This document shows positions 9,424-55,433 of a DNA stretch of 64,000 bases, one piece after another. Below the pieces are notes generated by a model. That model was not told where the DNA came from and ran no database searches. It saw nothing but the letters and a program-made list of their open reading frames with translations. Source of the DNA: Chaetoderma sp. LZ-2023a (lineage: Eukaryota > Mollusca > Caudofoveata > Chaetodermatida > Chaetodermatidae); the NCBI GenBank assembly GCA_034401795.1, contig CM067359.1, positions 143,164,233 through 143,228,232 of the forward strand, read 5' to 3'. Every line of letters begins with the position of its first letter. Position 1 is the stretch's first letter. The position numbers and the translations under genes are program-made.

Positions 9424-9426
9424 AGG
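9424..9426 (+). promoter_or_regulatory. Candidate 3' splice site before gag of copy A
   Basis: The sequence 'gtgcttattttatag|g' precedes the gag frame. The frame is closed at 9,423-9,425 by this very TAG and is open from 9,426 onward. Copy B keeps the same acceptor-like 'gtgcttatttatag|g' at about 50,645. A spliced 5' leader exon would supply the start codon and include the upstream Cys-x2-Cys-His motif. This is inferred from sequence alone. Confidence 0.4.
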
Positions 9427-9476
9427 CCAAGCCAGCCCCGCCATCATGTGACGACTGCCATAAGTTTGTCCGTGTA

Positions 9477-11534: not shown

Positions 11535-11591
11535 GGGTACGCAAGCTCCCTTCATATCCGCCTGGACCGCACCTGTGCGACAGGAACAGCG

Positions 11592-13748
11592 GTGCCAGTT
11601 ATACCCGTCGTGCCTAGAACGAAATGGTTCTCACTCTCTCTCTCGTTAAGAAAGAGGGGGGGGGGGCGGACTGCGAGCCGGACAACCCCGTTAGACGTCG
11701 AGGCGTCTATGGTGGGTGGAAGGCTCATGCGTTTCGTCGAGGCCTGGCGAGGTGTGACGTCAGACAGTCTGGTCCTGGGATGGTTATCCCAGGGTTACAT
11801 GCCGGAGTGGTGGGACTTTCCGCCACAAAATCTGTCTTTGGCACCTGTCTGGACACCCGTACCAAGGGAGCCAGACAAGTTAGAAGCCGTTCAAAAGGAA
11901 GTGTCGGGTTTGCTTCTGAAGGGAGCAATAAAACCAGCAAACCGGAACACTCCAGGCTTCTATTCAAACATGTTCCTTGTCCCCAAGAGCACGGGGGGAT
12001 GGAGACCCATACTCAATCTCAGGCCATTAAATTGGTTTATCCATACGCCTCGGTTCCAGATGGAAACGCCGAGGTCGGTAATGGCGGGATTGAGGAAAGG
12101 AATGTGGTGTGTATCGATCGATCTGAAAGATGCATATTTCCACATTCCGATGAATCGGAGTTGGCACATGTTTCTGAGATTTGCGTTTCAGAATCAAGTA
12201 TGGGAGTTTACAGTTCTCCCGTTTGGCCTGTCGACAGCTCCGAGGGTTTTCACAAGAGTGGTCCTTGCGGTGACAGCGTTTCTCAGAAAAGAGAACGTGG
12301 CGCTACACACCTACATAGACGACTGGCTGCTCAAGGCAGACTCGGCAGCCAGGTTGAACGTGGATACTGCTCTGACTCTGAAGTTACTTTCAGATCTAGG
12401 CTGGATAGTCAACGAGGAGAAATCCGAGTTGACGCCCACTCAACATTTCGTTTATTTGGGGATGCGATTCGACCTCGAGGAGGGCAGGGTTTACCCATCA
12501 GAGCCCAGAGTGGTGTCTCTGTTAGCCATCCTCAGGAGTTTTCGAGTGGGAAACCACATTCAGGCGAGGCGGTTCCTTCAGATGCTGGGCATGATGGTCT
12601 CCATGGAGCAGGTTATCCTGTACGCTGCTCTAATGCGAAGACCTATCCAGTTGTATCTGATGTCTCTGTGGAAACAGAGAACAGAACCCCTGTCAAAACT
12701 GGTGCCAGTTTTGGAGCCGATAATATCGCATCTTCTATGGTGGAAACAGAATCTCCTAATAGGGGTTTCGCTGCACCTACCCCACCCCCAGCTGTCCGTT
12801 TACACGGATGCATCACTGGAGGGGTGGGGTGCCTGCCTGGGAGAACACCAGGTCTCGGGCACATGGACTCTCCCGGAGAGTCAGCTGCATATCAATCTGT
12901 TGGAAATGATGGCAGTGGAACTGGCGTTGGAAGAGTTCCTTCCGATGATCAGGGGCAAGGTGATATTGATACGGTCGGACAATTCGACAGTAGTATCATA
13001 TATAAATCGCCAAGGCGGGACCAGGTCGCCCACCCTGTGCATCAGGGTGTGGCACTTGATTCAATGGTGCAGGAATTACTCGGTTGTTTTGAAAGCAGCT
13101 CATATTCCTGGCCGATTGAACATTCTGGCGGATGCTTTGTCTCGCAGACAGAGAATCTTGCCAACAGAATGGTCCCTCAACCCTCCAGTTCTACGACGGA
13201 TCTTCGAGCATTGGGGCAAACCCAACGTGGACTTGTTCGCCACAAAGGAAAATGCTCAAATCATGACATATGTCTCGCCGATTCCAGATCCAAATGCTGT
13301 CGATACAGACGCTCTGGCGATAAGCTGGAGAGGGATGCACGTGTACGCGTACCCACCCACCATTCTTCTTCCGAAGGTATTGGTGAAGGTCAGAGAGGAA
13401 TCGTGTCTGGTCCTGCTAATAGCGCCGTATTGGCCGAGCAGGGCGTGGTTCACGGATCTTCTAGATCTGCTGGTGGAAAATCCTGTGCAGTTGCCCGAGA
13501 TTCCGAACATAATCTCCCAGGCCAAGGGACGCTTCCTACACGAGCGTCCCGAAATGTTCAAATTGACTGCGTGGATGTTGTCAAACAACGTTCCACGTCG
13601 GAAGGCTTTTCTCGACAGGCTGCTGATTTCATCGCGGCTGCGAGAAGGAGGTCAACCTTCAAGTCATATAACAACAAGGTTAACAGATTTGCAGACTGGT
13701 GTGAAGAAAAGGGTATTGATACCTTTCAATCCACTATTCAGCAAATAG
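11592..13748 (+). CDS. DIRS reverse transcriptase / RNase H polyprotein (copy A)
   Basis: The product copies element RNA into DNA. The frame is the same as gag and is open from 11,535, immediately after the gag TGA. The first ATG is only at 11,709, so translation needs either readthrough of the TGA or late initiation; 11,592 is a GTG. Counting from 11,592, RT motifs are 'GGWRPILNLRPLN' (~135), 'SIDLKDAYFHIP' (~174), 'LPFGLSTAPRVFTR' (~210) and the catalytic 'YIDDWLL' (~240). RNase H follows with 'YTDASLEGWGACL' (~403), 'INLLEMMAVELALE' (~435), 'IRSDNSTVVSYIN' (~460) and 'ILADALSRR' (~512). The last ~190 residues ('NVDLFATKENAQ', 'IAPYWPSRAWF') are a C-terminal domain typical of DIRS pol. Some DIRS elements carry a Dam-like methyltransferase there, but I do not see its DPPY motif. 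It overlaps the recombinase frame. Confidence 0.92.
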   Translation: MPVIPVVPRTKWFSLSLSLRKRGGGRTASRTTPLDVEASMVGGRLMRFVEAWRGVTSDSLVLGWLSQGYMPEWWDFPPQNLSLAPVWTPVPREPDKLEAVQKEVSGLLLKGAIKPANRNTPGFYSNMFLVPKSTGGWRPILNLRPLNWFIHTPRFQMETPRSVMAGLRKGMWCVSIDLKDAYFHIPMNRSWHMFLRFAFQNQVWEFTVLPFGLSTAPRVFTRVVLAVTAFLRKENVALHTYIDDWLLKADSAARLNVDTALTLKLLSDLGWIVNEEKSELTPTQHFVYLGMRFDLEEGRVYPSEPRVVSLLAILRSFRVGNHIQARRFLQMLGMMVSMEQVILYAALMRRPIQLYLMSLWKQRTEPLSKLVPVLEPIISHLLWWKQNLLIGVSLHLPHPQLSVYTDASLEGWGACLGEHQVSGTWTLPESQLHINLLEMMAVELALEEFLPMIRGKVILIRSDNSTVVSYINRQGGTRSPTLCIRVWHLIQWCRNYSVVLKAAHIPGRLNILADALSRRQRILPTEWSLNPPVLRRIFEHWGKPNVDLFATKENAQIMTYVSPIPDPNAVDTDALAISWRGMHVYAYPPTILLPKVLVKVREESCLVLLIAPYWPSRAWFTDLLDLLVENPVQLPEIPNIISQAKGRFLHERPEMFKLTAWMLSNNVPRRKAFLDRLLISSRLREGGQPSSHITTRLTDLQTGVKKRVLIPFNPLFSK

Positions 13749-14590
13749 CAGACTTTCTCTGTGAGCTGTTCTTTGCAGGACTAGCTCCCGTCACAAGTGC
13801 TGGATACAAGTCAGCTTTGGCATCAGTTATCCCTTGTCTAGCCAACAGGGATAGTCCAGAGGTGGCCCAGTTAAACGTGATGTTGAAGGGAATGAGCAAT
13901 CTCCGCCCGAGACAACCGGTAGTCATTCCAGCCTGGAGTCTATCTTTAGTGCTTAATGTACTGGCCAAGCACCCTTTCGAACCGTTGCGTTCGGCTAGTC
14001 TAAAGCATTTGACTCTAAAGGCGGTCTTTCTATTGGCAGCTTCCTCAGCTAGAAGGCGCAGTGAGATCCATGCGCTTTCGGCAGAGAGGAACCGATTTAT
14101 TGTTTCTGGAGAAGGTCTGCGTCTTCTGCCAAGAGCAGAATTTATGTCAAAGAACCAATCTTTGAGATATCCCGGCAAACCGATCATTATACCGAAGTTA
14201 ACCAGGTTTGATCGTGATGCCAGTGTCTGGTGCCCGGTCCGTGCTTTGACTAAGTACAAGAAACGGACTGACTCGTTACGGTCGAACGATAGACATCTGT
14301 GGATCTGCCATAAAAAGCCTTATGGCGCCGCATCCATGGATACTATCTCTCGTTGGGTGGTCGAATGCATTCAGACTACTCACGAGATGGCGACTGGGCA
14401 CCAGGTGCAGGGCGTAAGGGCACACGATGTTAGAGGAATAGCCGCCTCGACCGCCCTTTACAATGGTGTTCCGTTAGAGGACATCATGGCCGTTGCACAA
14501 TGGCACTGTGAGTCCTCATTTACGGATTACTATATGAGGGATGTGTCAGACTCAGCCAATCCACTCGCTTTAGCTGTTTTGAAACGATAG
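11624..14590 (+). CDS. DIRS tyrosine recombinase, in a 988-codon frame overlapping RT (copy A)
   Basis: The C-terminal ~340 codons (about 13,570-14,590) are the tyrosine recombinase that integrates the circular DNA intermediate. An N-terminal SAM-like DNA-binding part ('TFKSYNNKVNRFADWCEEKGI') is followed by the catalytic domain, with Arg in 'SARRRSEIHAL' (~14,050), 'HDVRG' as the HxxR box (~14,423) and 'FTDYYMRD' with the nucleophile Tyr (~14,526). The frame is offset from RT. It stays open, starting with an ATG at 11,624, through almost the entire RT gene, so the first ~645 codons are a second reading of RT. Whether that long leader is translated is unknown. Overlap of RT and recombinase frames is known in DIRS elements. 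The recombinase more likely starts by internal initiation or frameshifting near the RT end. All catalytic residues are present. Confidence 0.88.
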   Translation: MVLTLSLVKKEGGGADCEPDNPVRRRGVYGGWKAHAFRRGLARCDVRQSGPGMVIPGLHAGVVGLSATKSVFGTCLDTRTKGARQVRSRSKGSVGFASEGSNKTSKPEHSRLLFKHVPCPQEHGGMETHTQSQAIKLVYPYASVPDGNAEVGNGGIEERNVVCIDRSERCIFPHSDESELAHVSEICVSESSMGVYSSPVWPVDSSEGFHKSGPCGDSVSQKRERGATHLHRRLAAQGRLGSQVERGYCSDSEVTFRSRLDSQRGEIRVDAHSTFRLFGDAIRPRGGQGLPIRAQSGVSVSHPQEFSSGKPHSGEAVPSDAGHDGLHGAGYPVRCSNAKTYPVVSDVSVETENRTPVKTGASFGADNIASSMVETESPNRGFAAPTPPPAVRLHGCITGGVGCLPGRTPGLGHMDSPGESAAYQSVGNDGSGTGVGRVPSDDQGQGDIDTVGQFDSSIIYKSPRRDQVAHPVHQGVALDSMVQELLGCFESSSYSWPIEHSGGCFVSQTENLANRMVPQPSSSTTDLRALGQTQRGLVRHKGKCSNHDICLADSRSKCCRYRRSGDKLERDARVRVPTHHSSSEGIGEGQRGIVSGPANSAVLAEQGVVHGSSRSAGGKSCAVARDSEHNLPGQGTLPTRASRNVQIDCVDVVKQRSTSEGFSRQAADFIAAARRRSTFKSYNNKVNRFADWCEEKGIDTFQSTIQQIADFLCELFFAGLAPVTSAGYKSALASVIPCLANRDSPEVAQLNVMLKGMSNLRPRQPVVIPAWSLSLVLNVLAKHPFEPLRSASLKHLTLKAVFLLAASSARRRSEIHALSAERNRFIVSGEGLRLLPRAEFMSKNQSLRYPGKPIIIPKLTRFDRDASVWCPVRALTKYKKRTDSLRSNDRHLWICHKKPYGAASMDTISRWVVECIQTTHEMATGHQVQGVRAHDVRGIAASTALYNGVPLEDIMAVAQWHCESSFTDYYMRDVSDSANPLALAVLKR

Positions 14591-28590: not shown

Positions 28591-28745
28591 GAGGAATGTG
28601 GGATGGGCGTCGACGTGCAATGGTGTTGGACAAACTGCCGGTTACTTTCTGGGAAATGTTTTGTTTCTTGCGCTAGAATCACCAGATTTCTGCAATAGTT
28701 ATCTCAGAGAGGTGCCGCAGAAAGACGGCATAGTCACACTCTCAG
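28591..28745 (+). CDS. SLC33A1: SLC33A1 exon 2
   Basis: The acceptor 'gtgttctcag' precedes G, which completes the AG|G Arg codon of exon 1. The exon encodes 'RNVGWASTCNGVGQTAGYFL' and 'GNVLFLALESPDF', the most conserved stretch of the family, and ends 'VPQKDGIVTLS' plus one base. The donor is 'ctcag|gtgagta'. This exon end is the seed of the minisatellite that fills the following intron: its last ~36 bases recur in every unit. Confidence 0.95.
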
Positions 28746-31700
28746 GTGAGTACCAGCGTGACAGAAATAGGGAATGGTCACTCCCAAGTGAGCATCAGAA
28801 AGAGGGAATGGTCACTCCAAGGTGGGTAGCAGTGTCATAGAAAGAGGGAATGGTCACTCCAAGGTGGGTAGCAGTGTCATAGAAAGAGGGAATGGTCACT
28901 ATGAAGTGAGTAACAGATAGAGGAAATGGTCACTCTCCAAGGTGAGTAAAAGTGTCACAGAAAGAGGGAATGGTCACACCCAGGAGAGTGATATCAGTGT
29001 CACAGAAATAGGGAATGGTCACACTCAGGAGAGTGGTGACAGTAAGAGGAAATGGTCACTCTCCAAGGTGAGTAAAAGTGTCACAGAAAGAGGGAATGGT
29101 CACACCCAGGAGAGTGATATCAGTGTCACAGAAAGAGGGAATGGTCACACTCAGAAGAGTGATATCAGTGTGACAGTAAGAGGGAATGGTCACTCATGTG
29201 AGTGATATCAGTGTCATAGAAAGAGGGAATGGTCACTCAGGTGAGTGGTATCAGTGTCACAGAAAGCGGGAATGGTCACGCTCAGATGAGTAAAAGTGTT
29301 ACAAAAGAGGGAATTGTCACACTCAGGAGAGTGATATCAGTGTGACAGAAAGAGGGAATGGTCACTCAGGTGAGTGATATCAGTGGTACAGAAAGAGGGA
29401 ATGGTCACGCTCAGATGAGTAAAAGTGTCACAGAAAGAGGGAATGGTCACTCATGTGAGTGATATCAGTGTCACAGAAAGAGGGAATGGTCACACTCAGC
29501 TGAGTGATATCAGTGTGACAGAAAGAGGGAATGGTCATTCTCATGTGAGTGATATCAGTGTGACAGAAAGAGGGAATGGTCATTCTCAGGTGAGTGATAT
29601 CAGTGTCATAGAAAGAGGGAATGGTCACTCAGGTGCATGATATCAGTGCCACAGAAAGAGGGAATTGTCACTCACATGAGTGATATCAATGCCACAGAAA
29701 GAATGAATGGTCACTCAGGTGAGTGATATCAGTGTGACAGAAAGAGGGAATGGTCACTCAGGTGAGTGATATCAGTGTGACAGAGAGGGAATGGTCATTC
29801 TCAGGTGAGTGATATCAGTGTCATGGAAAGAGGGAATGGTCACTCAGGTGAGTGATATCAGTGTGACAGAAAGACGGAAAGGTCACTCTCATGTGAGTGA
29901 TATCAGTGTCACAGAAAGAGGGAATGGTCACACTCAGCTGAGTGATATCAGTGTCACAGAAAGAGGGAATGGTCACTCATGTGAGTGATATCAGTGTCAC
30001 AGAAAGAGGGAATGGTCACACTCAGCTGAGTGATATCAGTGTCACAGAAAGAGGGAATGGTCACTCAGGTGAGTGATATCAGTGTCACAGAAAGAGGGCA
30101 TGGTCACTCCGGTGAGTGATATCAGTGCCACTGAAAGAGGGAATGGTCACTCTCATGTGAGTGATATCAGTGTCACAGAAAGAGGGAATGGTCACACTCA
30201 GCTGAGTGATATCAGTGTCACAGAAAGAAGGAATGGTCATTCTCTCAGGTGAGTGATATCAGTGTCATAGAAAGAGGGAATGGTCACTCAGCTGAGTGAT
30301 ATCAGTGTCACAGAAAGAGGGAATGGTCACTCAGGTGAGTGATATCAGTGTCACAGAAAGAGGGCAAGGTCACTCCGGTGAGTGATATCAGTGCCACTGA
30401 AAGAGGGAATGGTCACTCTCATGTGAGTGATATCAGTGTCACAGAAAGAGGGAATGGTCACACTCAGCTGAGTGATATCAGTGTGACAGAAAGAGGGAAT
30501 GGTCACTCATGTGAGTGATATCAGTGTCACAGAAAGAGGGAATGGTCACTCAGGTGAGTGATATCAGTGTCACAGAAAGAGGGCATGGTCACTCCGGTGA
30601 GTGATATCAGTGCCACTGAAAGAGGGAATGGTCACTCTCATGTGAGTGATATCAGTGTCACAGAAAGAGGGAATGGTCACACTCAGCTGAGTGATATCAG
30701 TGTCACAGAAAGAAGGAATGGTCATTCTCTCAGGTGAGTGATATCAGTGTCATAGAAAGAGGGAATGGTCACTCAGGTGAGTGATATCAGTGTGACAGAA
30801 AGAGGGAATGGTCACTCAGGTGAGTGATATCAGTGTCATAGAAAGAGGGAATGGTCACTCAGGTGAGTGATATCAGTGTGACAGAAAGAGGGAATGGTCA
30901 TTCTCAGGTGAGTGATATCAGTGCCATAGAAAGAGGGAATGGTCACTCAGGTGAGTGATATCAGTGTGACAGAAAGAGGGAATGGTCACTCTCAGGTGAG
31001 TGATATCAGTGTCATTGAAAGAGGGAATGGTCACTCTCAGGTGAGTGATATCAGTGTGACAGAAAGAGGGAATGGTCATTCTCAGGTGAGTGATATCAGT
31101 GCCATAGAAAGAGGGAATGGTCACTCAGGTGAGTGATATCAGTGTGACAGAAAGAGGGAATGGTCACTCTCAGGTGAGTGATATCAGTGTCATAGAAAGA
31201 GGGAATGGTCACTCTCAGGTGCATGATATCAGTGCCACAGAAAGAGGGAATTGTCACTCACGTGAGTGATATCAATGCCACAGAAAGAAGGAATGGTCAC
31301 TCAGGTGAGTGATATCAGTGTCATGGAAAGAGGGAATGGTCACTCTCAGGTGAGTGATATCAGTGTGACAGAAAGAGGGAATTGTCACGCTCAGGTGAGT
31401 GATATCAGTGTGATAGAAAGTGGGAATGATCACTCTCAGGTGAGTGATATCAATGCCATAGGAAGAGGGAATGGTCACTCTCAGGTGAGTGATATCAGTG
31501 TCATAGAAAGAGGGAATGGTCACTCTCTCAGGTGAGTGATATCAGTGCCACTGAAAGAGGGAATGGTCACTCAAGTGAGTGATATCAGTGTCACAGAAAG
31601 AGGGAATGGTCACACTCAGGTGAGTGATATCAGTGCCACAGAAAGAGGGAATGGTCACTCATGTGAGTGATATCAGTGTCACAGAAAGAGGGAATGGTCA

Positions 31701-34021
31701 CTCAGCTGAGTGATATCAGTGTCACAGAAAGAGGGAATGGTCACTCAGGTGAGTGATATCAGTGTCACAGAAAGAGGGCAAGGTCACTCCGGTGAGTGAT
31801 ATCAGTGCCACTGAAAGAGGGAATGGTCACTCTCATGTGAGTGATATCAGTGTTACAGAAAGAGGGAATGGTCACACTCAGCTGAGTGATATCAGTGTCA
31901 CAGAAAGAAGGAATGGTCACTCAGGTGAGTGATATCAGTGTGACAGAAAGAGGGAATGGTCACTCAGGTGAGTGATATCAGTGTCATAGAAAGAGGGAAT
32001 GGTCACTCAGGTGGATGATATCAGTGGCACAGAAAGAGGGAATGGTCACTCAGGTGAGTGATATCAGTGTGACAGAAAGAGGGAATGGTCACTCAGGTGA
32101 GTGATATCAGTGTCATAGAAAGAGGGAATGGTCACTCAGGTGGATGATATCAGTGGCACAGAAAGAGGGAATGGTCACTCAGGTGAGTGATATCAGTGTG
32201 ACAGAAAGAGGGAATGGTCACTCAGGTGAGTGATATCAGTGTCATAGAAAGAGGGAATGGTCACTCAGGTGAGTGATATCAGTGTCATAGAAAGAGGGAA
32301 TGGTCACTCAGGTGGATGATATCAGTGGCACAGAAAGAGGGAATGGTCACTCAGGTGAGTGATATCAGTGTCACAGAAAGAGGGAATGGTCACTCAGGTG
32401 AGTGATATCAGTGTCACAGAAAGAGGGAATGGTCACTCAGGTGAGTGATATCAGTGTCATAGAAAGAGGGAATGGTCACTCAGGTGGATGATATCAGTGG
32501 CACAGAAAGAGGGAATGGTCACTCAGGTGAGTGATATCAGTGTGACAGAAAGAGGGAATGGTCACTCAGGTGAGTGATATCAGTGTGACAGAAAGAGGGA
32601 ATGGTCATTCTCAGGTGAGTGATATCAGTGCCATAGAAAGAGGGAATGGTCACTCAGGTGAGTGATATCAGTGTGACAGAAAGAGGGAATGGTCACTCTC
32701 AGGTGAGTGATATCAGTGTCATTGAAAGAGAGAATGGTCACTCTCAGGTGCATAATATCAGTGCCACAGAAAGAGGGAATTGTCACTCAAGTGAATGATA
32801 TCAGTGTCACAGAAAGAGGGCATGGTCACTCAGGTGAGTGATATCAGTGCCACTGAAAGAGGGAATGGTCACTCATGTGAGTGATATCAGTGTCACAGAA
32901 AGAGGGAATGGTCACACTCAGCTGAGTCATATCAGTGTCACAGAAAGAAGGAATGGTCATTCTCTCAGGTGAGTGATATCAGTGTCATAGAAAGAGGGAA
33001 TGGTCACTCAGGTGAGTGATATCAGTGTGACAGAAAGAGGGAATGGTCATTCTCAGGTGAGTGATATCAGTGTGACAGAAAGAGGGAATGGTCATTCTCA
33101 GGTGAGTGATATCAGTGTCATAGAAAGAGGGAATGGTCATTCTCTCAGGTGCATGATATCAGTGCCACAGAAAGAGGGAATTGTCACTCACGTGAGTGAT
33201 ATCAATGCCACAGAAAGAAGGAATGGTCACACTCAGCTGAGTCATATCAGTGTCACAGAAAGAAGGAATGGTCATTCTCTCAGGTGAGTGATATCAGTGT
33301 CATAGAAAGAGGGAATGGTCACTCAGGTGAGTGATATCAGTGTGACAGAAAGAGGGAATGGTCATTCTCAGGTGAGTGATATCAGTGTGACAGAAAGAGG
33401 GAATGGTCATTCTCAGGTGAGTCATATCAGTGTCACAGAAAGAAGGAATGGTCATTCTCTCAGGTGCATGATATCAGTGCCACAGAAAGAGGGAATTGTC
33501 ACTCACGTGAGTGATATCAATGCCACAGAAAGAAGGAATGGTCACTCTCAGGTGAGTGATATCAGTGTCATAGAAAGAGGGAATGGTCACGAATGGTCAC
33601 TCAGGTGAGTGATATCAGCGCCACAGAAAGAGGGAATGGTCACTCAGCTGGATGATATCAGTGCCACAGAAAGAGGGAATTGTCACTCAGGTGAGTGATA
33701 TCAGTGCCACAGAAAGAGGGAATGGTCACTCTCAGGTGAGTGATATCAATGCCCCAGAAAGAGGGAATGGTCACTCTCAGGTGAATGATATCAGTGCCAC
33801 AGAAAGAGTGAATGGTCACTCTCAGGTGAGTGATATCAGTGCCACAGAAAGAGGGAATGGTCACTCTCAGGTGATTGATATCAGCGCCACAGAAAGAGGG
33901 AATAGTCACGTCCATGTGAAGTAGATTAGTGTCCTACAGGTATAAGGAGGAATGGTCACTCCCAGGTGAAGGAGATTAGTGTCACAGAAAGAGGGAATGG
34001 TCATACTGTCAGCTGAGTGAT
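28746..34021. repeat. ~43-bp minisatellite (43/45/47-bp units), about 120 copies, derived from the exon 2 donor
   Basis: The consensus unit is 'gtgagtgatatcagtgtcac' + 'agaaagagggaatggtcact' + 'cag', 43 bp. Longer variants have 'cactctcag' (45), 'cactctctcag' (47) or 'cacactcagc'. The array starts at the exon 2 splice donor and fills about 90% of intron 2. The exon end, 'gtgccgcagaaag' + 'acggcatagtcacac' + 'tctcag|gtgagt', aligns with the unit, 'gtgccacagaaag' + 'agggaatggtcac' + 'tctcag|gtgagt'. The first and last few units are the most diverged, as usual at array edges. Frames of up to 97 codons inside it are repeats, not genes. Confidence 0.97.
31937..32560. repeat. Higher-order repeat block inside the minisatellite
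   Basis: A marker variant 'ggtggatgatatcagtggca' occurs at 32,013, 32,142, 32,314 and 32,486. The spacings of 129, 172 and 172 bp are exactly 3, 4 and 4 units of 43 bp. The variants between markers follow the same order, showing multi-unit amplification. Confidence 0.9.
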
Positions 34022-34549
34022 ATACATTTATACATACATACTACATCATTGTTGTTGTCTTCTAGCATATAGATATATTTGAATGGTAACAGGATGTGTG
34101 TACCCAGTTTGCTCATATACATGCAAGCTATTTAAGCATAGTGAGCCCTTCTAAATGGTAATCACACCAGGGGGAGATGGAATTTAAAATCAGCTCTCTT
34201 ATGATGTAAGTTGTTAGACTTGCTACCCCTCAAGTTGTATTGAGATCCATTCATCAATAACAAAGCAGTGATGAGTTTAACATCTTTTTGGGTGGGCCAA
34301 TCTAAAACCAGGCAGGGTGTGAATAGCAGATCATCCGTTATGGTCTTGACAGGTACGACTAGAATATTCGCCTAAAGTGTTATCAGGATATAATGTACTC
34401 ATCAATAACAGAGTAACAATTTTTTTGATAATTACCCTAGAATATCTTCAACTTTTATCACGATCCATCTATCGACAGCGGAAGCTAGTGGGGTTGTATT
34501 AGTACATTGACCTAGTATTGTATATAAATTAGTTAATTGTATTTTCCAG
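34022..34549. other. Intron 2 tail
   Basis: This is unique-looking AT-rich intron sequence between the minisatellite and exon 3, with no gene. It ends in the acceptor 'ttgtattttccag'. Confidence 0.7.
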
Positions 34550-34731
34550 GATTTCTGTACTTTTGGGGCATTGTGTTCTTCATCACTACAACTCTGGTTT
34601 GGTTTCTTAAACACGAGGCTGATGATACGACGGAAGATGATCATGGAATTATTACCACATACCTGCGTTTGTGGGACGTTATACGATTACCAAATGTTAA
34701 ACAACTAGCTGTGATTTTATTGACAGCAAAG
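34550..34731 (+). CDS. SLC33A1: SLC33A1 exon 3
   Basis: It encodes 'GFLYFWGIVFFITTTLVWFL', a membrane helix, then the cytosolic linker 'KHEADDTTEDDHGIITTYL', then 'RLWDVIRLPNVKQLAVILLT' leading into the next helix. The first codon is split G|GA across the intron, and the exon ends in phase 0 at AAG|gtcagt. It matches the family by order and sequence. Confidence 0.93.
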
Positions 34732-35710: not shown

Positions 35711-37231
35711 TACTGAACCAAAAAAGTTTAGCAACACTGAGAATATTACTGTATAAATGTTATTTAACAAAAACAATAAATTGATTCAAATATATTATTT
35801 AATTGATAGGTCATTTTCCAATTTGAACAGCAGTTGTTACTGTAATGCTAGCATCGCGCCTTTAACATGGCATCATTCAATGGAAGGGTCCAATTTAAAT
35901 AATGACACTGAGCTGTCAATACTGGTTGTGACCTCCGCGCGCATTAACCACCGCCGTACATCGCTTTCTCATGCTTCGAATTAAGCACCTGATGTCACGA
36001 AGAGGAATCGCATCCCATTACTGGAGCAGTGCAGCTTCCAGCTCGCGCACGTTGTGAAGATGTGGATGGTTCTCACGCACCATACGGCCAAGAATGTACC
36101 ACACGTGTTCGATAGGAGACAGGTCCGCTGATCGCGCTGGCCAGTCCAACACCGGAACGTTGTTAGCCTCAAGGTAATCGCTGGTGACCCTAGCTGAATG
36201 AGGACAGGCGTTCTCTTGCTGGAACATAAAGTCTGCATGATGCTGCATAAAAGGGATGACAACAGGGGTGACAACTTCTTCACAGTAACGTTGAGCCGTT
36301 AAATTTCCGCGAATCACAATAAGATCTGTTTTGCCATTTTCATGGATTCCAGCCCACACCATGACACTGCTGCCACCGAATCTGTCGTGCTGAATGATGT
36401 TGGCTGCATCATACCGTTCTCCTAAATGTCGCCAAACCCGTTGCCTACCATCCGCCACATCTACACAAAACCTCGACTCATCACTGAACAAAACGTGGCT
36501 CCATTGTTGAGCACGCCATCGCTGATGAGTTCTTGCCCATGCAAACCGATTCTCGATGTGACGCTCTGTAAGCAGAACAGCAACAAATGGACGACGGGCA
36601 TGCAGTCCAGCATCATGGAGTCTGTTTCGCACAGTTTGTGGATGCACTGTAGTGCCGGTAGCGGTGTGCAAATTATGGGACAGCCGCGGCGCAGTCTCAA
36701 ACCTGTGACGTCACGATGACGTCACTAAGTAGCAGTCTTCTCGTGGTGCTGTTGCTCTCGGTCTGCCAGATCGTGGTCGATCATTAACATGTCCAGTTTC
36801 CTGCTCACGTTGGCGGAGACGGGAAATGGTTTGGGGCGTGAACATTAAAATGTCGAGCAACAGCGCGAACGCTCTGCCCAGCAGCGAGTCTTCCCATTGC
36901 TTCATGGCGCTGATTTTCGGGTAGCCCTGGGCTGCGGCCCATGTTCGGTAGGGTAAACCTTTAAGCATTTTCTGTTAACGTTCGTTATCTGCCTTTTGCA
37001 ATATGGTGAATTTTTGCCTTCGCTACCCGCCAATGTGGGCCAGTGCATGAAAAATGCATTTTCACATGCATTAAGCGTGCAGCTGAGAAATGCAAGAACT
37101 GATTTGGATTTCTTCATGATCAGCGAGACATTACATTAACGAAACATGCCTGAAAATTTGGTTATAAATGGACGCATAGTTTTAATACAACAAACCAAAC
37201 TTCACTGTTGCTAAACTTTTTTGGCTCAGTA
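35711..37231 (-). mobile_element. Tc1/mariner transposon in intron 3
   Basis: Terminal inverted repeats 'tactgaaccaaaaaagttta' (35,711) and its complement ending at 37,231 ('taaacttttttggctcagta') are flanked by TA dinucleotides, the normal Tc1 target duplication. The transposase gene is on the minus strand and carries inactivating changes. At about 1.52 kb the element has a typical Tc1 length, and it sits wholly inside intron 3. Confidence 0.93.
36018..36968 (-). pseudogene. Tc1-like transposase, interrupted
   Basis: The C-terminal part (36,018-36,671) is open and carries 'LFSDESRFCVD' (first catalytic Asp), 'MVWAGI' and 'SADLSPIEHVW' (the Glu of the DDE triad). The second catalytic Asp is replaced: the box reads 'FQQENACPHSAR', where Tc1 enzymes have Gln-Asp-Asn. 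The N-terminal part (36,711-36,968, same frame) contains the helix-turn-helix end 'TPQTISRLRQREQETGHVND' and the basic 'RPRSGRPRAT'. A TGA at about 36,711-36,713 separates the parts ('YLVTSS*RHRFETAPRL'), and the extreme N-terminus appears frameshifted. It would move the element by cut and paste if intact. Both the stop and the Asp-to-Glu change argue that it is dead. Confidence 0.88.
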
Positions 37232-39659: not shown

Positions 39660-42600
39660 CAGTCAGTCATCCACACAGTCAGCTGGTCGGTTGCTGAGTG
39701 GGTTGGTCAATTGGTGGGTGGGTGGTTTGGCCTCTCAGCCTGTCTGTCCATCCATCACTCACGCAGTCTGTCACTCATGCAGTCATCTGATCTGTCACTC
39801 ATGCAGTTATCTGATCTGTCACTCATGCAGTCATCTGATCTGTCACTCATGCAGTCACCCAATCTGTCATTCGCGCATTTATCTGATCTGTCACTCATGC
39901 GGCCAGCTGATCTGTTACTCATGCAGTCATCCGATCTGTCACTCGTGCAGTCATGCGATGTCACTCATGCAATCATCCGTTCTGTCACTCACGCAGTCAT
40001 CTGATCTATCGCTCAAGCAGTTGGTTGGTTGGTCACTCGGTCGGTCATTCGGTGGGTTGGTCAATCGGTGGGTGAGTGGTTTGGTCCATCAGTAAGTCAC
40101 TCATGCAGTCAGCTGATCTGTCAGTCATGCAGTCCATCAGTCTGTCACTCATGTAATCATCCTCTCTGTAACTCATGCAGTCCATCAGTCTGTCACTCAT
40201 GCATTTGTCATATCTGTCACTCATGCCGGCCATCAGGCTGTCACTCATGCAGTCATCCTATGTGTCACTCATACAGTCATCCGATATGGCACTCATGCAT
40301 TCTGTCAATCATGCAGTCATCCAATCTGTCACTCATGCAGTCATCTGATCTGTCATTTATGCTGGCTGTCACACATGCAGTCATCCTTATTGGCACTTAT
40401 GCAATCATCCGATATGTCACTGATGCAATCCATCTGATCTGTCACTCATGCAGTCACCCGATCTATCAGCCATGCAGATGGTCACCAATGCATTTGTTCT
40501 GGGGGTGGGGTGCCATCGGTAGCTTTGTCGTTTAGTCGGTCAAGCAGTGGGTTGATCAGTCGGTGGGTGGGTGGTTTGGTCTGTCAGCCTGTCAGTCAGT
40601 CCGTCACTCATGCAGTCATCCGATCTGTCACTCATGCAGTCATGCAGTCATCCGATCTGTTGCTCATGTGGTCGGCCAGTTGTTCAGTGGATTGGTCAGT
40701 CTGTGGGTGGGTGGTTTGGACTCTCAGGGTTGCTGTCACTCATGCAGTCTTCTGATCTGCCACTCATGCAGTCCATCAGTCCGCCATTCATGCAGTCATC
40801 GAATGTATCAGTCATGCAGTCGGTGACTCATATAGTCAGTCACTCATGTGGTAAGTCAGTCCTTCACTCATGCAATCATTTGGTCCATCCGGCTGAAGGG
40901 TAGTTTTGTCTGTCAGCCTGTCTATCACTTATGCAGTCATCTGATCCGTCCCTTGTGCAGACATCCGATCTGCCACTCATGTGGTCTGTCCGCCAGTCTG
41001 TCACTCAAACAGTCATCCGATCTGTCACTCATGTACTCATAAGATCTGTCACTCATGCAGCCTGTCACTCGTGCAGTCATTCTATCTGTCACTCATGCAG
41101 TCATCTGATATGTCACACAGGTAGGCCATCAGTCTGTCACTGACATGGTCCATCAGAATGTCACTCCTGAATTCATCCGATCTGTCACTCATGCAGTCCG
41201 TCAGTCTGTCACCCATGCAGTCATCCGATGTGTCATTCATGCAGTCATCCGATCTATCACTCATGCAGTCATCAGATCTGTCACTCATGCAGTTATCTGA
41301 TCTGTTACTCATTTGGTCATCTGATCTGTCACTCATGCAGTCATCCGATCTATCACTCATGCATTCAGCCAATCTGTCACTCATGCAGTCATCCGATCCG
41401 TCACTCATGAAGTCATCCGATGTCACTCATGCAGTTATCCTATCTGTCACTCATGCATTCATCCAATATGTCATGCATGCATTCCGTCAGTGTGTCACTC
41501 ATGCAATCATCTGATCTGTCCCTCGTGCAGTCATCTGGTCTGTCATTCATGCAGTCCATCAGTCTGTTACACATGCAGTCATCCTATTTGTCACTAATGC
41601 AGTCATCCGATGTCACTCATGCAGTCCATCTGATATGCCACTCATGCAGTCACTGATCTGTCACTCATGCAGTCGGTCGGGGGAGGGGGCGGGATCAGTC
41701 GGTCGGTTTGTCGTTTAATCGGTCGAGCAGTGGGTTGATCGGTAGGTGGGTGGGTGGTTTGTGCCGGCAGCCTGTCAGTCAGCCCATCACTCATGCAGTC
41801 ATCCGATCTGTCACTCATACTGTCATCCAATCTATCACTCATGCAGTCAACTGATCTGTCACTCATGCAGTCAAATGATCTGTCACTCATGCAGTCAAAT
41901 GATCTGTCACTCATGCAGTCATCTGATCTGTCACTCATGCAGTTGTCCAATCTGTCACTCATGCAGTCATCGATCTGTCACTCACGCAGTTACCTGATCT
42001 GTCACTTATGCGGTCATCTGATCTGTTACTCATGCATTCATCCGATCTGTCACTCATGCGGTCTGTCGGTTGCTAAGTGGGTTGGTCAGTCCGTGGATGG
42101 GTGGTTTGGTCTTTCAAGTTGTCCGGCACTCAGGCAGTTTTCCGGCACTCATTCAGTCTGTCACTCATGCAGTCATCGAATTTGTTAGTCATGCAGTCGG
42201 TGACTCATATAGTCGGTCGGTCGGTCAGTAGCTCATGTGATCAGTCAGTCCTTCACACATGCAGGCAGCCGATCTGTCACTCATGCAATCGGTTGGTCTG
42301 TCTGGCTGAACGGTAGTGTTCTGTCAGCCTATCCATCACTTATGCTGTCAACTGATCTGTCCCTTATGCAGGCATCCGATCCGTCATTCATGTGGTCGGT
42401 CGTTCCGCCAGTCTGTCACTCATACAGTCATCTAATATGTCACTCATGCACTCATAAGATTGTCACTCATGCAGTCTGTCACTCATGCAGTTATCCTCTC
42501 TGTCAGTCATCCGATATGTCATACATATGGTCGATCAGTCTGTTACTGATGTGGTCCGTCAGTCTGTCACTCTTGCAGTCATCCGATATGTCGCTCATGC

Positions 42601-44335
42601 AGTCTCAGTCATGCAGTCTTCCGATCTCTCACTCATGCATTCATCCGATGTGTCACTCATGCAGTCGCTTGGTCGATGGGTGGGAGTGGGGGTTTTGGTC
42701 TGTCACTATGTCTTTCAGTCTGTCACTTATGCAGTCATCCATTCCGTCACTTATGCAGTCCTCGTTTCAAGCGCTAACTCATACAGTTGGGCGGTGGGTA
42801 GGTTGGTCGCTCGTGTGGTCGGTTGGTTGTTCAGTCTTTCATGCATGCAGGCATCCGGTCTGTGACTGATGCAGTCATCCGATCTGTCACTCATGAAGTC
42901 ATCCGATCTGTCACTCATGCCATCCATCATCCTATCTGTCACTCATGCAGTCATCCGATATGTCACCTGCAGTCCAACACTCTGTCACTGATGCTGTCCT
43001 TTGATCTGTCACTCATGCAGTCTGTCAGTCTCTCACCCATGCGGTCATCCAATCTGTCACTCAAGCAGTTTAGACTCAACCTCTATTCCTCATGCAGTCA
43101 TCCAATGGCCCTCATGCAGTCTGTCAGTCTGTTACTCATGCAGTCATCCGATCAGTCACGCAATCATCTGATCTGTCACACATGCAGTCGGTCGGGTGGT
43201 CAGTTTGTCGCTTAGTTGGTCTGTCCGTGGTTTGGTCAGTCGATGGGTGGGTGGTTTGGTCCATCAGTCTGTCCGTCAGCCCATCAGTCATGCAGTAATC
43301 CGATGCGATCAGCCAATTGTTTGCTCAGTGGGTTGATCTATCTGTGGGTGGCTGGTTTGGTCTGTCAGCATCTCATGCAGTCTTCCGATCTGCCACTCAT
43401 ACATTACGCTAGTTCGTCACTCATGCAGTCATCCAACTTGTCACTCTTGCAGTCATCCAATATGTCACTCATGCAGTCATGCGATCTGTCACTCATGCAG
43501 TCGGTCGGTCAATTGGGCGGCCTGTCCGTCAGTCTGACACTAATACAGCTGTCCGAGTTGTCACTCATGCAGCCTGTCAGTCCGTCACTCATACAGCTGG
43601 TCATCCGATCTGTCACTCATGTAGTCAGTCGTTCGGTCTGTCAGCCTATATGTCAGTCAGTCACTCATGCTGCTGTCCGATCTGTCAATCATGCACCACG
43701 TCAATCCATCACTCATACAGTTGGACATCCGATCTGTCACTCATACAATCGGTCGGTACGCTAGTTTGTCACTCATGCAGTCATCCAATTTGTCACTCTT
43801 GCAGTCATCCAATATGTCACTCATGCAGTCATGCGATCTGTCACTCATGCAGTCGGTCGGTCAATTGGGCGGCCTGTCCGTCAGTCTGACACTAATACAG
43901 CTGTCCGAGTTGTCACTCATGCAGCCTGTCAGTCCGTCACTCATACAGCTGGTCATCCGATCTGTCACTCATGTAGTCAGTCGTTCGGTCCGTCAGCCTA
44001 TATGTCAGTCAGTCACTCATGCTGCTGTCCGATCTGTCAATCATGCACCGCGTCAATCCATCACTCATGCAGTAGGACATCCGATCTGTCACTCATACAA
44101 TCGGTTTGTCCTCCGATCTGTCACTAACTATACAATCGGTCGGTACGCTAGTTTGTCACTCATGCAGTCCTCCAATTTGTCACTCTTGCAGTCATCTGAT
44201 ATGTCACTCATGCAGTCAGTCGTTTGGTCTGTCAGCCTATCTGTCAGTCCGTCACTCATGCTGCCATCCGATCTGTCACTCATGCATCGCGTCAGTCATC
44301 TGATCTGTCACTCATGCGGTCAGTTGAAAATTGAC
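39660..44335. repeat. 24-bp minisatellite, ~4.7 kb
   Basis: The core unit is 'tctgtcactcatgcagtcat' + 'ccga', 24 bp, with many variants and interspersed GTCGGTCGGTTGGT-type words. Because 24 is a multiple of three, long open frames appear in all three + frames and on the minus strand (products rich in 'MQSSDLSL', 'HSCSHPIC', 'MSDRSDDC'). These are consequences of the period and I do not call them genes. Larger duplications are also present. Confidence 0.95.
43400..44110. repeat. 352-bp duplication within the 24-bp array
   Basis: 'tcaattgggcggcctgtccg' occurs at 43,509 and 43,861, exactly 352 bp apart. The flanking sequence is near-identical from 'ctagtt(c/t)gtcactcatgca' to 'cgcc/cgcgtcaatccatcac'. 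It is a recent segmental duplication inside the array. Confidence 0.88.
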
Positions 44336-45890: not shown

Positions 45891-47547
45891 CACCTGTGCA
45901 AAAGTTAAGCACCAGCAAAAACAATAGAACGTAGAAACATGATAGTACAACTAGGCTGCCATACTTTTTGTCCCCGCGTTAGCTGACATAATTCCAAGTA
46001 CGAAATGCACATGCATGCATGACTTCACGCCGCTTGATGTCCGTGCGTGGCGGGAAACAGCACACGTGTTCAGTTATGTAAAAGTCCAGTTTGAGGTGTA
46101 GAACATTACATACAGATTTAGGCGACAAGATTAGGAATTTTGTGTTCATGACCGTGGTTTATTTGTACAGAGAGAATTAGCTCTTGATTGTGAACCGCTA
46201 TGGCAAGACGAAGGTTAAGTGATCGTGTGAAATGGCAAATCATAGGCATGCATACCACTGGTATGTCATGCAGAGAGATTGGCAGACAGCTGAACATTAA
46301 CCATACTGTAATCAGTCGTTTGATTGCAAAACATGGGCAAACTAACGAGGTGAAGGACAGGCCTAGATCTGGAAGACCGAAGAAGACTACTGCCCGTGAT
46401 GATCGAGCCCTAGTACGCCTTGTTAGGAGATCTCCATTCACCAACAGCAGAGTGCTCAGCCAGCAATGGGAAACGCGCAATAGAGTGTCAATGTCTACCG
46501 TCAAAAGGAGACTGTATGCTGCTGGCATGAAAGCTAGGAGACCTGTCAGACGTCCTCTCCTCACTGCACACCACAAAGAGGAGCGTCTGAGGTGGTGCAA
46601 CGAAAGAAGACACTGGAACATGAGATCCTGGAGACGGGTACACTGGTCCGATGAAAGTCGGTTCCTGCTTCATGCCACAGATGGTCGAACTCGTGTATGG
46701 AGGTCCAGACGCACGGCGTACGACCAACGTAACATCATGGAAGAAGTTCCATTTGGTGGAGGTTCCGTTATGATATGGGGGTGCATCTCATTTGATTGTA
46801 AGCTGGATCTGTTGACTGTACCTGGAACACTAAATGGACAAAGATATCAAGATTCCATACTGGATAGAGTTGTGGTCCCTCATTTTGTAAATCATGCACC
46901 TGGAACCCACCCTATATTCATGGATGACAACGCCCGACCACATCGTGCTAGAGCTGTGCATGAATACCTCCGCCAGAATGCCATCGAAACCCTACCATGG
47001 CCAGCAAGGAGCCCTGACATGAACCCTATTGAGCATATCTAGGACATTCTGGGAAACATGGTGAGAAGGAGGGATCCTCCTGTGCAGAACCTACAGGAAT
47101 TAACAGACGCACTCCATCTTGAATGGCAACGAATACCACAATGGCATATCAGTCGGTTGGTGACCAGCATGAGACGTCGTGTCCAGGCCGTCATCCAGGC
47201 AAAAGGTGGATATACGCAGTATTAATAATGACAGTCTCAAACTCGTGCACAGATGTTAAACTTCGTTTTCAGACACCATTAATGACAATCTAGCAACGTG
47301 TGTCAACTGTAGGGCAATAGTTGTCAGTTGTGTCAACGTAACCATATTCAGGCCTCGTTTTCAAGTTCAAACAAAAACATACAGTGTTTCCCCACCATCA
47401 TAATCAGCATTCCTCTAGTTGCATTATTACCTCTTGCACTAAGATGGATGGGTACATAAATGTTTATGCTATTGCTTTCTTCATAGCACATGAATATACC
47501 CTCGCATGTGCGTAAAAATAGGGTGGTGCTTAACTTTTGCACAGGTG
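45891..47547 (+). mobile_element. Tc1/mariner transposon in intron 4
   Basis: Terminal inverted repeats 'cacctgtgcaaaagttaagc' (45,891) and its complement ending at 47,547 ('gcttaacttttgcacaggtg') are flanked by TA on both sides. It encodes one nearly intact transposase. It is a different family from the intron 3 element, with different ends and protein. Confidence 0.95.
46200..47225 (+). pseudogene. Tc1-like transposase with one premature stop
   Basis: It would be a 341-residue cut-and-paste transposase. The N-terminus is a paired-type helix-turn-helix DNA-binding domain ('SDRVKWQIIGMHTTGMSCRE', 'HTVISRLIAKH'), then the basic linker 'DRPRSGRPKKT' and a second helix-turn-helix. The DDE domain has 'HWSDESRFLLH' (Asp), 'IFMDDNARPHRAR' (Asp) and 'SPDMNPIEHI' (Glu), so the triad is complete. 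The only visible lesion is TAG at 47,040-47,042, where family members have Trp ('IEHIW'). Downstream the frame continues intact ('DILGNMVRRRDPP', 'WQRIPQWHISRLVTSM') to TAA at 47,223-47,225. This suggests a recent loss. Confidence 0.92.
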
Positions 47548-49750: not shown

Positions 49751-50649
49751 ATGCTTTTGTAGTTGGAAAGATCTTGAGAAATTAAATCTAAGTCTTTTTG
49801 TCTGTGGTTTATTGTGATAGCTAGTGCGTTTCTACAAGGATTTTTGGATTAATATGGATACCGCCGATGATAACCAGGTTGTATATTTCCTTATTATTCC
49901 ATAGTTAAAAGACTTAGGTCTCTAAAATTTCGTCTGTGTTGCATGTTCCAATTTCTAAACCCTGAGAAGACGGGACGTGTGTTAACAATGAAATGTGCCG
50001 GATGATCGCCTTTAAACCCCAACAGGCGATCAGCAGATATGAAAATAGGTGTTTGCTACAGTATCTTTAACATGAATATCGGCTGACGTCGTTCTCCGTA
50101 AGATCCGAGCGGGTGACGTCACACCCGTGTTGCTCGGATGTTTATGTGAAGAAAATTTTTCATTAATTCGCGCATCTTATTCTAGGTGCTGCGTACTAAA
50201 ATGGTACCAGAAAACTTTGGAATTTCAAGTTTTGTGTGTTATCACGATCTGTTTGCAATGATCGGTGGTTTCAAAACTCTTGATTAAGATGTGTGGTCTG
50301 CGGTTTTACCGTGTGCTACAGCAGTTTGTTTCATTTTGTTGTTTCTTCACATATCGTTTTGGCTTTCGTTAGGAGTATAATTTATATTTATTGGTAAATA
50401 TACCCCAAATGCTATGCGATATGATTCCTGGTTCCGTGATACATCCTTGAGGATCAGTTTATGTGTGTATTTATGCCCGCTTCGTTCTTATCGTCATAAT
50501 CAATGCGATCTTTGCTGTAACGCTGCGGGGTGGGGTGCGGGAGGGTTACAGTTAATTTGTGGTCAATATATTTGAAAATAAATTGTCTGCCTTCCATCTT
50601 TGTCTCGTTCCGCTTGCTTATTGTAGGTTTGTGCTTATTTATAGGACAA

Positions 50650-52726
50650 GCCAGCCCCGCCATCATGTGACGAGTGCCACAAGTTCGTCCGGGTCCTGTT
50701 TAAGGACCATGTCTGCTTTCGGTGTACGTTGTGTAACCCTGACAATAGGTGTAATATATGTGCAGTGTGGTCCGTTGATATGATGATGAAGTTCCTTGCC
50801 CAGAAGGACTTGGCTGGGTCTGACGCGGGGTCAGGCGGACCGAAATTAAATCGTGGAGCGTCCGTTTCGGCCCTTGGGGGCGCTCCACATCTTCAGCTGG
50901 AGGTGGCGGAGATGGCACCGCCGGCGTGGTTTGGTCCGGCTATGCAGGGCTTTCTGCCCACGCTGGTGTCGTCCCTGCTGCCGAAAGTTGTTGGCAGTCT
51001 CTCCCCATGCTTGGTTCGGACCCTGTCCTTGGATGGGGTTCTGGACTGGTCGCCGAGGGAGCCGTCTCGTACGGCCCCCTGGCAGTCCCGTCGGGCTCCG
51101 GCCTAACGGGTTATGTCTCTCTGCGGCCACCTCAGGGTGGTCCAGTAGCGGTGGCCAGTCCGTCAGGCATGGGAGCCGTCCGCCAGGATGGCTCCACAGT
51201 TTCCTCATCTAGTGACGACTCTTCGGGGTCTGAAGATGGTGCCGAGGAAGAGAGGCTGCTGCGGCCTGTGATGCCACGGGTGGATAATATGGAGGTCGAT
51301 TCTGTCCTTGACAGAACTGTCTTCCATCTGTCTGGCTTGGCGCAAGCTATGGCAGCGGCTCCGCCCGTGGTTGAGGCCAATCTGGTACCAGGCACCGGTC
51401 CCGTGATGGTTGGTTTGACGCCAACCGACACGGTGACGGGTGTGCCGGGCCAGGCGTGGTACTCACCTATCTCGCCTGGTCCGGCGGTCAGACATGGGGT
51501 GCCGTTGGCGCCCGTGGCTGGCCACGGTTCCGTGCGGGCCTACTCCATGGACTGGTGTGTTCCATGGGGTGGCGGTGGAACCGTATGGTACCGGATTTCC
51601 TGGCGTGTCAGCCGCGGCTCCTAGCCGGGAGGCCGTGGCTGGTAGGTCTGTGAACATGTCAACGGGTGACGTGTTCACGGGTGTGTCCTCCTCGGAAATA
51701 GATTGGTCTGAGGCTCTGGCTTGGCTAGCCAGGGTAGACCCGTCTGTGGTTTCGACCACGGCCGAGGAGGATGCGCCCCGTCCATCGGTGGCATCGATCA
51801 GGACGGGGATCTTGCCCGCAGCCCGGATCCAGTCCGTTGGACTGGATCCACGGTTTATTGAGTTGCTAGAGGCTATTTATAGTAAGCAACTCATGACCAA
51901 GGGCCAGCTCCCTGCGGCCTCCAGGGAGGTGCGGGCGAGGTGTCGTATTCCACGGGGGGAATACGACAGGTATGGTGTTGTACCGTCGGTTACCGAGGAT
52001 GACCGATGGGTTCTGGGTGTCCAGAGTGCTGGAGCGGGTGGCCCCGCCCCGGCACTGGTGGACAAATCCCAGGGACACCACGAGGAAGTCCTGTCCCTTT
52101 GCGATGAGGGTGTGAGGGCAGCCATGAGTGCTGTCAACCATTCTTATCGCCGCCTTCAGTTGGTGTGGGCTGAAGCGGGGGCAGGCCACCCTGTGCGACC
52201 TGTGGCGCTTTCGTGCGTCAATGACGGCCTGGTGCTGTCTATGGACGCACTGGCAAGGGTGCAGGCGCGTGTTACGAAGTCCAGGAGGCAAATGGTTCTT
52301 GACCATATGCGTCCGGCTACGGCCGTCAGGGAGCGTCTTCTTGGGACGCCCCTGACAGGTCCTAGTTTCTTCTGTGGCTAGGCGCGGGCGATCTTAGAGG
52401 ACACGGCTAGCATTGCGCAGAATCGGTTGGCGGTGAACCTACAGCTAGAGCTGGTGCGGCAAGCGCACGCACTAGGGGCTGTAGGGAAGCCGCTGACATT
52501 GCAACCTTCCAAGAAGCAGAAGAAGCATAAAGGCAAGGCGAAAGCTAAGCCTAGTGCGGCTGCTGCTTCGTCTGGCTTTTCTCAGCCGCCGCCGGCGAAG
52601 AAAGCCAGGAAGGTTGTGGAGGCCCCTACCCTCCCCAATGTTGCTCCTGATCGCCCTAGAGGCGGGAAGGCCAAGGGAAAGGGTAAGTCCTCAAAGGGCG
52701 GAAAGAAGGGAGCGGATCGTACCTGA
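50650..52726 (+). pseudogene. DIRS gag, broken (copy B)
   Basis: It is homologous along its length to the intact gag of copy A, including the Cys-rich start ('CDECHKFVRV', 'CFRCTLCNPDNRCNIC'), 'EIDWSEALAWLARVDPSVVS', 'RCRIPRGEYDRYGVVPSVTE' and the Lys/Gly-rich tail. Frameshifts occur between about 51,000 and 51,600. A TAG at 52,379-52,381 replaces the Gln/Ala codon context of copy A ('GGQARAI'). The terminal TGA at 52,724-52,726 corresponds exactly to the TGA that ends gag in A. Confidence 0.88.
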
Positions 52727-54593: not shown

Positions 54594-55433
54594 CAGACTC
54601 CCTGTGAGCTGTTCTTTTCAGGACTAGCCCCCGTCACAATTGCTGGATACAAGTCAGCTTTGGCATCAGTTATCCCTTGTCTAGCCAACAGGGATAGTCC
54701 AGAGATGGCCCAGTTAAATGTGATGGTGAAGGGAATGAGCAATCTCCGACCGAGACAACCGGTAGTCATTCCAGCCTGGAGTCTATCTTTAGTGCTTAAT
54801 GTACTGGCCAAGCACCCTTTCGAACCGTTGCGTTCGGCTAGTCTAAAGCATTTGACTCTAAAGGCGGTCTTTCTATTGGCAACTTCCTCAGCTAGAAGGT
54901 GCAGTGAGATCCATGCACTTTCAGCAGAGAGGGACCGATTTATTGTCTCCGGAGAGGGTCTGCGTCTTCTGCCAAGAGCAGAGTTTATGTCAAAGAATCA
55001 ATCTTTGAGATATCCCGGCAAACCGATCATTATACCGAAACTAACAAGGTTTAATCGTGATGCCAGTGTCTGGTGCCCGGTCCGTGCTTTGACTAAGTAC
55101 AGAAAACGGACAGACTCGTTACGGTCGAACGATAGACATCTATGGATCTGCCATAAGAATCCTTATGGCGCCGCATCCATGGATACTATCTCTCGTTGGA
55201 TAGTCGAATGCATTCAGACTACTCATGAGATGGCGACTGGGCACCAGGTGCAATGCGCAAGGGCACACGATGTTAGAGGAATAGGTGCCTCGACCGCCCT
55301 TTACAGTGGTGTTCCGTTAGAGGACATCATGGCCGTTGCACAATGGCACAGTGAGTCCTCATTCACGGATTACTATATGAGGGATGTGTCAGACTCAGCC
55401 AATCCACTCGCTTTAGCTGTTTTGAAACGATAG
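54400..55433 (+). pseudogene. DIRS tyrosine recombinase, frameshifted (copy B)
   Basis: It matches copy A closely. The N-terminal part ('FKSYNNKVNRFADWCEEKGI') is separated from the catalytic part by a frame change near 54,600, where small differences create the TGA in 'tccctgtgagc'. The catalytic part (54,660-55,433) is open and keeps 'SARRCSEIHAL', 'RAHDVRGIGAS' and 'SSFTDYYMRDV', so the Arg, HxxR and Tyr positions are conserved. It ends in TAG at 55,431-55,433, as in copy A. Confidence 0.9.

Follow-up and report, generated by a model that had tools for sequence, protein, structure and literature searches.

How does a minisatellite come to begin at the very base where a coding exon ends? 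The question is raised by a stretch of 64,000 nucleotides (nt) from the mollusc Chaetoderma sp. LZ-2023a (hereafter the window; G000:C1:143164233-143228232 of the assembly searched, 2.44 Gb in 2753 contigs), in which the second intron of the acetyl-CoA transporter gene SLC33A1 is largely made up of tandem units that resemble the end of exon 2. We conclude that this array is very probably a mirage, that is, a minisatellite founded by tandem duplication across the exon-intron boundary, which then expanded neutrally while selection acted on the copy in the exon.

The array in intron 2 of SLC33A1

The gene was recognised from the peptide of exons 1-4; the named proteins that match it best are acetyl-CoA transporters of molluscs, with identities of 64% in Liolophura, 66% in Solemya and 65% in Ostrea. 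Its relevant features, in window coordinates and with a slash marking the exon-intron boundary, are:

28591..28745, +, SLC33A1 exon 2 (ttctcag/GAGG...CTCAG/gtgagt), 155 nt, 3' intron phase 1; from its translation aligned with solved acetyl-CoA transporter 1 and 38 homologues
28712..28745, +, probable founder segment, the end of exon 2, which codes for VPQKDGIVTLS(G) and counts as unit 0; from wraparound and affine alignment and a profile match
28743..28751, +, predicted authentic 5' splice site, CAG/GTGAGT
28746-34549, +, intron 2, 5804 nt, between exons 2 and 3
28746..34012, +, mirage array of 120 units, mostly 43, 45 or 47 nt, consensus GTGAGTGATATCAGTGTCACAGAAAGAGGGAATGGTCACTCTCAG, with 59 later copies of CAG/GTGAGT; from wraparound alignment
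28746..29197, +, diverged 5' edge of the array, units 1-11, without a CAG/GTGAGT decoy; from unit alignment and donor scoring
33605..34012, +, 3' edge of the array, units 112-120, on average the most exon-like; from distance to the exon tail
34013..34549, +, remainder of intron 2, a partial unit extending the array from 34012 to about 34023, then unique sequence ending in tattttccag; from sequence and alignment
34550..34731, +, exon 3 (GFLYFWG...LLTAK); from translation and acetyl-CoA transporter 1 homology

Division into units by wraparound alignment to a 45-nt consensus gave 54 units of 43 nt, 44 of 45 nt and eight of 47 nt, with 67 distinct sequences among the 120 and a total extent of 5267 of the 5804 nt of the intron. 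The original prediction had claimed some 120 reiterations in intron 2, starting exactly at the donor, and both points were borne out: 120 units lie between 28746 and 34012, and the first of them runs from the +1 base itself. Blocks of units recur within the array. The inner units have evolved in concert (mean distance to the consensus 0.041-0.045 for units 21-100), and the edge units have been left out of this (0.097 for units 1-5, 0.075 for units 112-120); diverged edges on both sides would be expected if homogenisation was limited to inner units.

Likeness of the exon tail to the repeat unit

The repeat unit spans the exon 2/intron 2 boundary of its host gene. Positions 28712-28745 align to it with five mismatches and an insertion of 2 nt. 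This alignment continues across the donor into the first unit, in agreement with the likeness claimed earlier. When a profile of the 120 units was run against both strands of the 64-kb window, with 28746-34021 masked, the exon 2 tail (28712-28741) was the only significant match (E=3.4e-4), the next best having E=0.88. This match leaves out the donor bases, and it adjoins the array in register with it; adjacency and register are extra evidence, outside the shuffle and E-value figures. The original prediction had named an alignment no better than that of shuffled sequence as grounds for giving it up, and none of 2000 dinucleotide shuffles of the exon reached the profile score. With a cruder linear-gap Smith-Waterman alignment, the exon's score was equalled by 5 of 2000 whole-exon shuffles, and by none of 2000 when its last 50 nt without the CAG were shuffled.

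It might be supposed that an unrelated intronic minisatellite resembles the exon by chance and through the donor consensus that both would share. The genome is rich in minisatellites, and the cruder scores can be reached, by the five shuffles just mentioned and by 10 of 1554 window tiles. However, a match found without the donor bases, the sole significant one in the window, adjoining the array and in register, is not readily explained in this way, and nor is the recurrence of the same arrangement at other exons with close tails, such as those at the loci L079 and L078 described below (34/35 and 39/42 bases). We regard chance likeness as very improbable.

Direction of the change

In 38 homologues, hand-chosen among 120 listed, the residues around GIVTLS are strongly kept: G and L never vary, while P and T are found in 37, V in 29 and Q in 27. 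The solved acetyl-CoA transporter 1 sequences, which we take to be human, read PQPRGIVTLS at the position of the exon tail. With residues at the exon tail that animals have conserved, the exon must have come first, and the array derives from it. Moreover, where the exon has CACACTCTCAG, common units have CACTCTCAG, CACACTCAG or CACTCAG, which is the exon form minus two or four bases, as would be expected with the exon form ancestral.

The opposite course, in which the array came first and a unit was copied into the exon end by intron-to-exon gene conversion, could draw on the contiguity of array and exon, which would allow exchange both ways, and on units 112-118, which share an exon base absent from most units. 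But exon-tail residues present in 37-38 of the 38 homologues must be older than the array, and we are inclined to dismiss this course almost entirely.

Two points of the original prediction did not hold up. The first units had been described as intermediate between exon and array, but in the five columns that distinguish the exon from the consensus, the exon base is found in none of the first 20, and units 1-5 are the least similar to the exon (mean distance 0.252), the most exon-like being units 112-120 (0.159). It had also been said that many units still encode VPQKEGIVT, which overstates the case: the peptide occurs exactly six times in the three forward frames, and the commonest unit reading is VSQKEGMVT (19 of 120 units). 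The central proposal, that the exon end was the founder, is supported by the conserved exon tail and by the recurrence of the same architecture at other exons. It also survived the check that the unit might exist as a satellite at unrelated loci. All 43 exact genome matches to a 20-base unit core, CAGAAAGAGGGAATGGTCAC, lie inside the SLC33A1 array (which holds 43), in a search for exact copies that would miss diverged ones and whose repeat counts are lower bounds; to that extent, the unit does not behave as dispersed satellite DNA.

Decoy donors

The AG/GT signal is kept in many, not all, units. Among 116 unit starts scored, 59 read CAGGTGAGT, 12 CATGTGAGT and 11 CAGCTGAGT; 59 later sites match the real donor CAG/GTGAGT exactly, and 90 GT sites past it score at least 7 bits by the donor matrix used for this and the other donor scores. 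The first CAG/GTGAGT decoy has its +1 base at 29241, 495 nt beyond the real donor. Up to that point ten sites score at least 5 bits, and the reading frame is open to the new junction only at the first two of these, 28788 and 28822, of which 28788 alone combines an open frame with a multiple of three. We considered whether decoys are weaker near the exon and rejected this, as AAG/GTGAGT sites at 28942 and 29068 score almost as the real donor and the 5' edge has diverged in donor and other columns alike. Thus, edge decay explains why no CAG/GTGAGT lies within those 495 nt.

So many donors, 59 of them identical to the real one, suggest another possibility, that the mirage is a functional splicing or expression element, its many donors and purine-rich tracts serving as a reservoir for U1 or adjusting the output of SLC33A1. 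Decoys also tend towards stronger hairpins than the real donor: units of 43 and 45 nt fold as TCACTC-loop-GAGTGA around the donor at -9.1 and -9.9 kcal/mol, compared with -4.7 kcal/mol for the real donor, or -3.7 in a shorter stretch. However, no covariation was found in the hairpin arms (177 of 500 permutations were as low), variability is slightly higher in the donor columns than in the others (0.055 vs 0.039 in units 12-111, and 0.095 vs 0.075 and 0.099 vs 0.072 at the edges), and the unit core, by exact search, is confined to SLC33A1. We therefore consider a function of this kind unlikely. Sequestration of the decoys in hairpins was likewise rejected: accessibilities overlap, the real donor being less accessible than 22 of the 81 GTGAGT decoys, and together with arms that lack covariation this leaves no case for selection on hairpins.

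Recurrence at other genes

Arrays elsewhere were located by searching the genome for three CAGGTGAGT or three CAGGTAAGT at minisatellite spacing. The first pattern gave 568 matches (24 of them the SLC33A1 array) against 176 for the reversed pattern, and the second gave 146 against 865 for its reversed control. With signs that are opposite, there is no consistent genome-wide enrichment of donors in minisatellites by these two patterns, so we claim none and used the counts to find arrays. From the CAGGTGAGT matches listed we took all arrays but that of SLC33A1 (the upstream one of two at L066), and from the CAGGTAAGT matches listed 20 of 23 arrays, so that the sample is drawn from the matches listed, which represent part of the genome. 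It comprises 29 stretches (L061-L069 and L072-L091). As L065, L068 and L069 hold a single array in three copies, the independent arrays number 27, all donor-bearing. Their 5' edges were screened by eye and then tested; the ten CAGGTAAGT loci tested were picked by eye from the 20, and five of the ten passed.

At eight of the 27 arrays (L061, L062, L063, L073, L076, L078, L079 and L083) the 5' edge lies in sequence matching the array's own unit. Profile matches of edge to unit within 7.5-kb loci have E-values of 1.4e-7 (L061), 3.2e-8 (L062) and 2.8e-16 (L063); for the others identity is 40/51 (L073), 28/35 (L076), 39/42 (L078), 34/35 (L079) and 21/26 (L083), in each case with 0 of 300 base shuffles as good. 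Five of the eight matching edges encode a recognisable protein, namely VPS45 (L063; PDB match E=2e-8), ARIH1 (L062; PDB match E=2.4e-4), lysyl-tRNA synthetase (L079; E=8.4e-5), a natriuretic-peptide-receptor-like protein (L076; PDB 5.2e-5, Pfam ANF_receptor 5.1e-6) and an immunoglobulin I-set domain (L083; E=1e-4, just under Pfam's own cut-off). At the VPS45 and ARIH1 loci we take the peptide after the array to be each gene's next exon. The other three edges are putatively coding: L061 had no convincing PDB match, L073 no Pfam family, and L078 only Pfam TPR_DOCK at E=0.076. Judging from these edges, mirage formation has also struck other genes of the same genome.

Several tested loci were not counted: L081 (a DnaJ exon, Pfam E=1.4e-10), where the match is 7 nt and 57 of 300 shuffles were as good; L082 (162/300); L085 (a Cation_efflux exon, E=4.4e-4; 264/300); L075 (147/300); and L088, with a 10-nt match, 1/300 and no protein. 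By eye alone, no exon was seen at L064, the L065 group, L066, L067, L072, L074, L077, L080, L084, L086, L087, L089, L090 or L091, the 0.8-kb stretches of L077, L080 and L091 stopping short of the array edge.

Three further observations concern donor-bearing arrays. At L085 (C5:48130880-48131670, minus strand), L082 (C2:6241700-6242490, minus strand) and L081 (C1:3947750-3948540, minus strand) each array opens at the donor of an exon that looks coding (cation efflux, unknown and DnaJ, respectively), and the units hold little or no exon sequence; they are possibly a donor-only variant of the same process. At the ARIH1 locus the donor in use appears from the sequence to be GAG/GTAAAT, and CAG/GTGAGT is present in 14 of 25 later units, so that the decoys there look like better donors than the one presumably used. 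Lastly, a 52-base-pair (bp) donor-bearing array occurs in three copies (G000 C1:176353831, 176427100 and 176513054, minus strand) about 73 and 86 kb apart, i.e. within a larger duplication.

A model for the origin of the array

A mirage at SLC33A1 would have arisen as follows. About 47 bp, made up of the final 34 nt of exon 2, the donor CAG/GTGAGT and some 13 nt of intron, would have been duplicated head to tail. The homology is plain; the duplication itself may have come about by slippage between short direct repeats in the exon and the donor-proximal intron, for which there is a candidate arm in the exon:

28697..28706, +, exon stretch AGTTATCTCA, resembling the intron part of the unit, AGTGATATCA, and possibly the left arm of a founder direct repeat; affine alignment, 8/10 bases, then a 5-nt gap

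At VPS45 the exon/unit match begins at GAGTC, which is also present in the donor GT/GAGTC, and in these two cases the short direct repeats would fit a founder step by either slippage or end joining. The extra copies would have become intronic because the exon-attached donor stayed in use, and would then have drifted and expanded to 120 copies; blocks of units are seen in the array, and unequal exchange together with block duplication may have been the route of expansion. Copy 0 has been kept and the inner units have homogenised among themselves, a pattern that purifying selection on the GIVTLS codons and the donor would account for. Most probably the array serves no function itself, and its decoys may be tolerated because the exon-attached site is recognised together with the exon.

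Some of our results weigh against this account. The units adjoining the exon are not the most exon-like. As to neutrality, 97 of the 119 decoys have stabler local hairpins than the real donor, though without any covariation of the arms. The Smith-Waterman score is equalled by the tiles mentioned above, eight of the ten being in the other minisatellite at 40-44 kb. The profile score was reached by 58 of 2000 synonymous recodings of the exon-tail peptide, making the evidence from SLC33A1 alone modest, and the Smith-Waterman score by 139 of 2000; as some recodings score as well, the likeness must be carried partly by the encoded peptide, as expected if the array inherited that peptide. An exon-derived edge was not shown at the other 19 of the 27 donor-bearing arrays. 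Finally, the position of the real donor (+1 = 28746) is predicted from the homology of exons 2 and 3.

Comparison with known systems

The original prediction was sound in its reading of an exon-end founder, but it omitted that arrays of this kind have been named and described before. The term mirage was given in lancelets to tandem repeats that cross an exon-intron boundary (Branchiostoma Adh3, the globins BflGb6/9, PGBD5 and TnC; PMC3087553, PMC3902484). They share with the SLC33A1 array boundary-spanning repeats, AG/GT in many units, homogenised inner units and boundary units left out. Regular splicing is reported for the lancelet mirages (PMC3087553, PMC3902484). The SLC33A1 array belongs to another phylum and differs in size: its 120 units are mostly of 43-47 bp, where the two BflGb6 haplotypes carry 3 and 6 units of 150-160 bp, BflGb9 has a duplicate of 157 bp and the units of Adh3 measure 10-72 bp.

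Introns have also arisen by tandem duplication of AGGT (in potato RdRp, ATP2A1 and fission yeast; PMC4974935), again with a segment carrying AG/GT that was copied in tandem and then became intronic. An intron made in that way would have both splice sites in duplicated copies. The SLC33A1 3' splice site (34549) is in unique sequence outside the array, 537 nt beyond the last full unit, and thus intron 2 was not created by the duplication. In human segmental duplications, internal tandem repeats at the boundaries of exons and introns (PMC2812944) are also minisatellite units that alter exon or intron ends, but they average 30-bp units repeated four times and occur in young paralogues, unlike the SLC33A1 array. 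Other intronic minisatellites are described in PMC4039745 and PMC12783039. No mollusc mirage was found in the literature searched, whose coverage left out most subscription journals. Within that literature, what is new is the phylum, the 120-copy example and the recurrence across genes; the kind itself is known.

Other repeats in the window

A second large minisatellite occupies a later SLC33A1 intron (window 39767-44315) and has a 24-bp unit, TCTGTCACTCATGCAGTCATCCGA, along with longer blocks. Its start lies some 1.4 kb beyond an exon ending near 38379, and so not at that exon's donor. Two related retroelements (9426-14590 and 50645-55433) have reverse transcriptase, RNase H and a recombinase-like C-terminal reading frame, and by eye we take them to be DIRS/Ngaro-like. 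Two Tc1/mariner-like transposase reading frames (36018-36974, minus strand; 46194-47042, plus strand) were also seen by eye, as was a short dispersed repeat, tttgcagaccaagagaagactattttt...gactggctcg, in introns near 27560, 27980 and 28350 and also at L068, L069, L089 and L090.

Significance

The findings place mirages outside lancelets and supply a case of 120 copies. They establish the origin of a minisatellite by its ancestry, which is rarely known otherwise, and in the younger arrays, with exon tails matching at 39/42 and 34/35 bases, the founder event is almost directly readable. Arrays in which the real donor is followed by dozens of exact copies of it constitute a natural test of how the spliceosome chooses a 5' splice site. 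We hold in even balance the broader proposal that mirage formation is recurrent, and probably ongoing, in this mollusc, with many coding genes carrying arrays that are expanding and that originated from the genes' own 5' splice sites; donors would then be birthplaces of minisatellites that reshape intron length and splice-site competition genome-wide.

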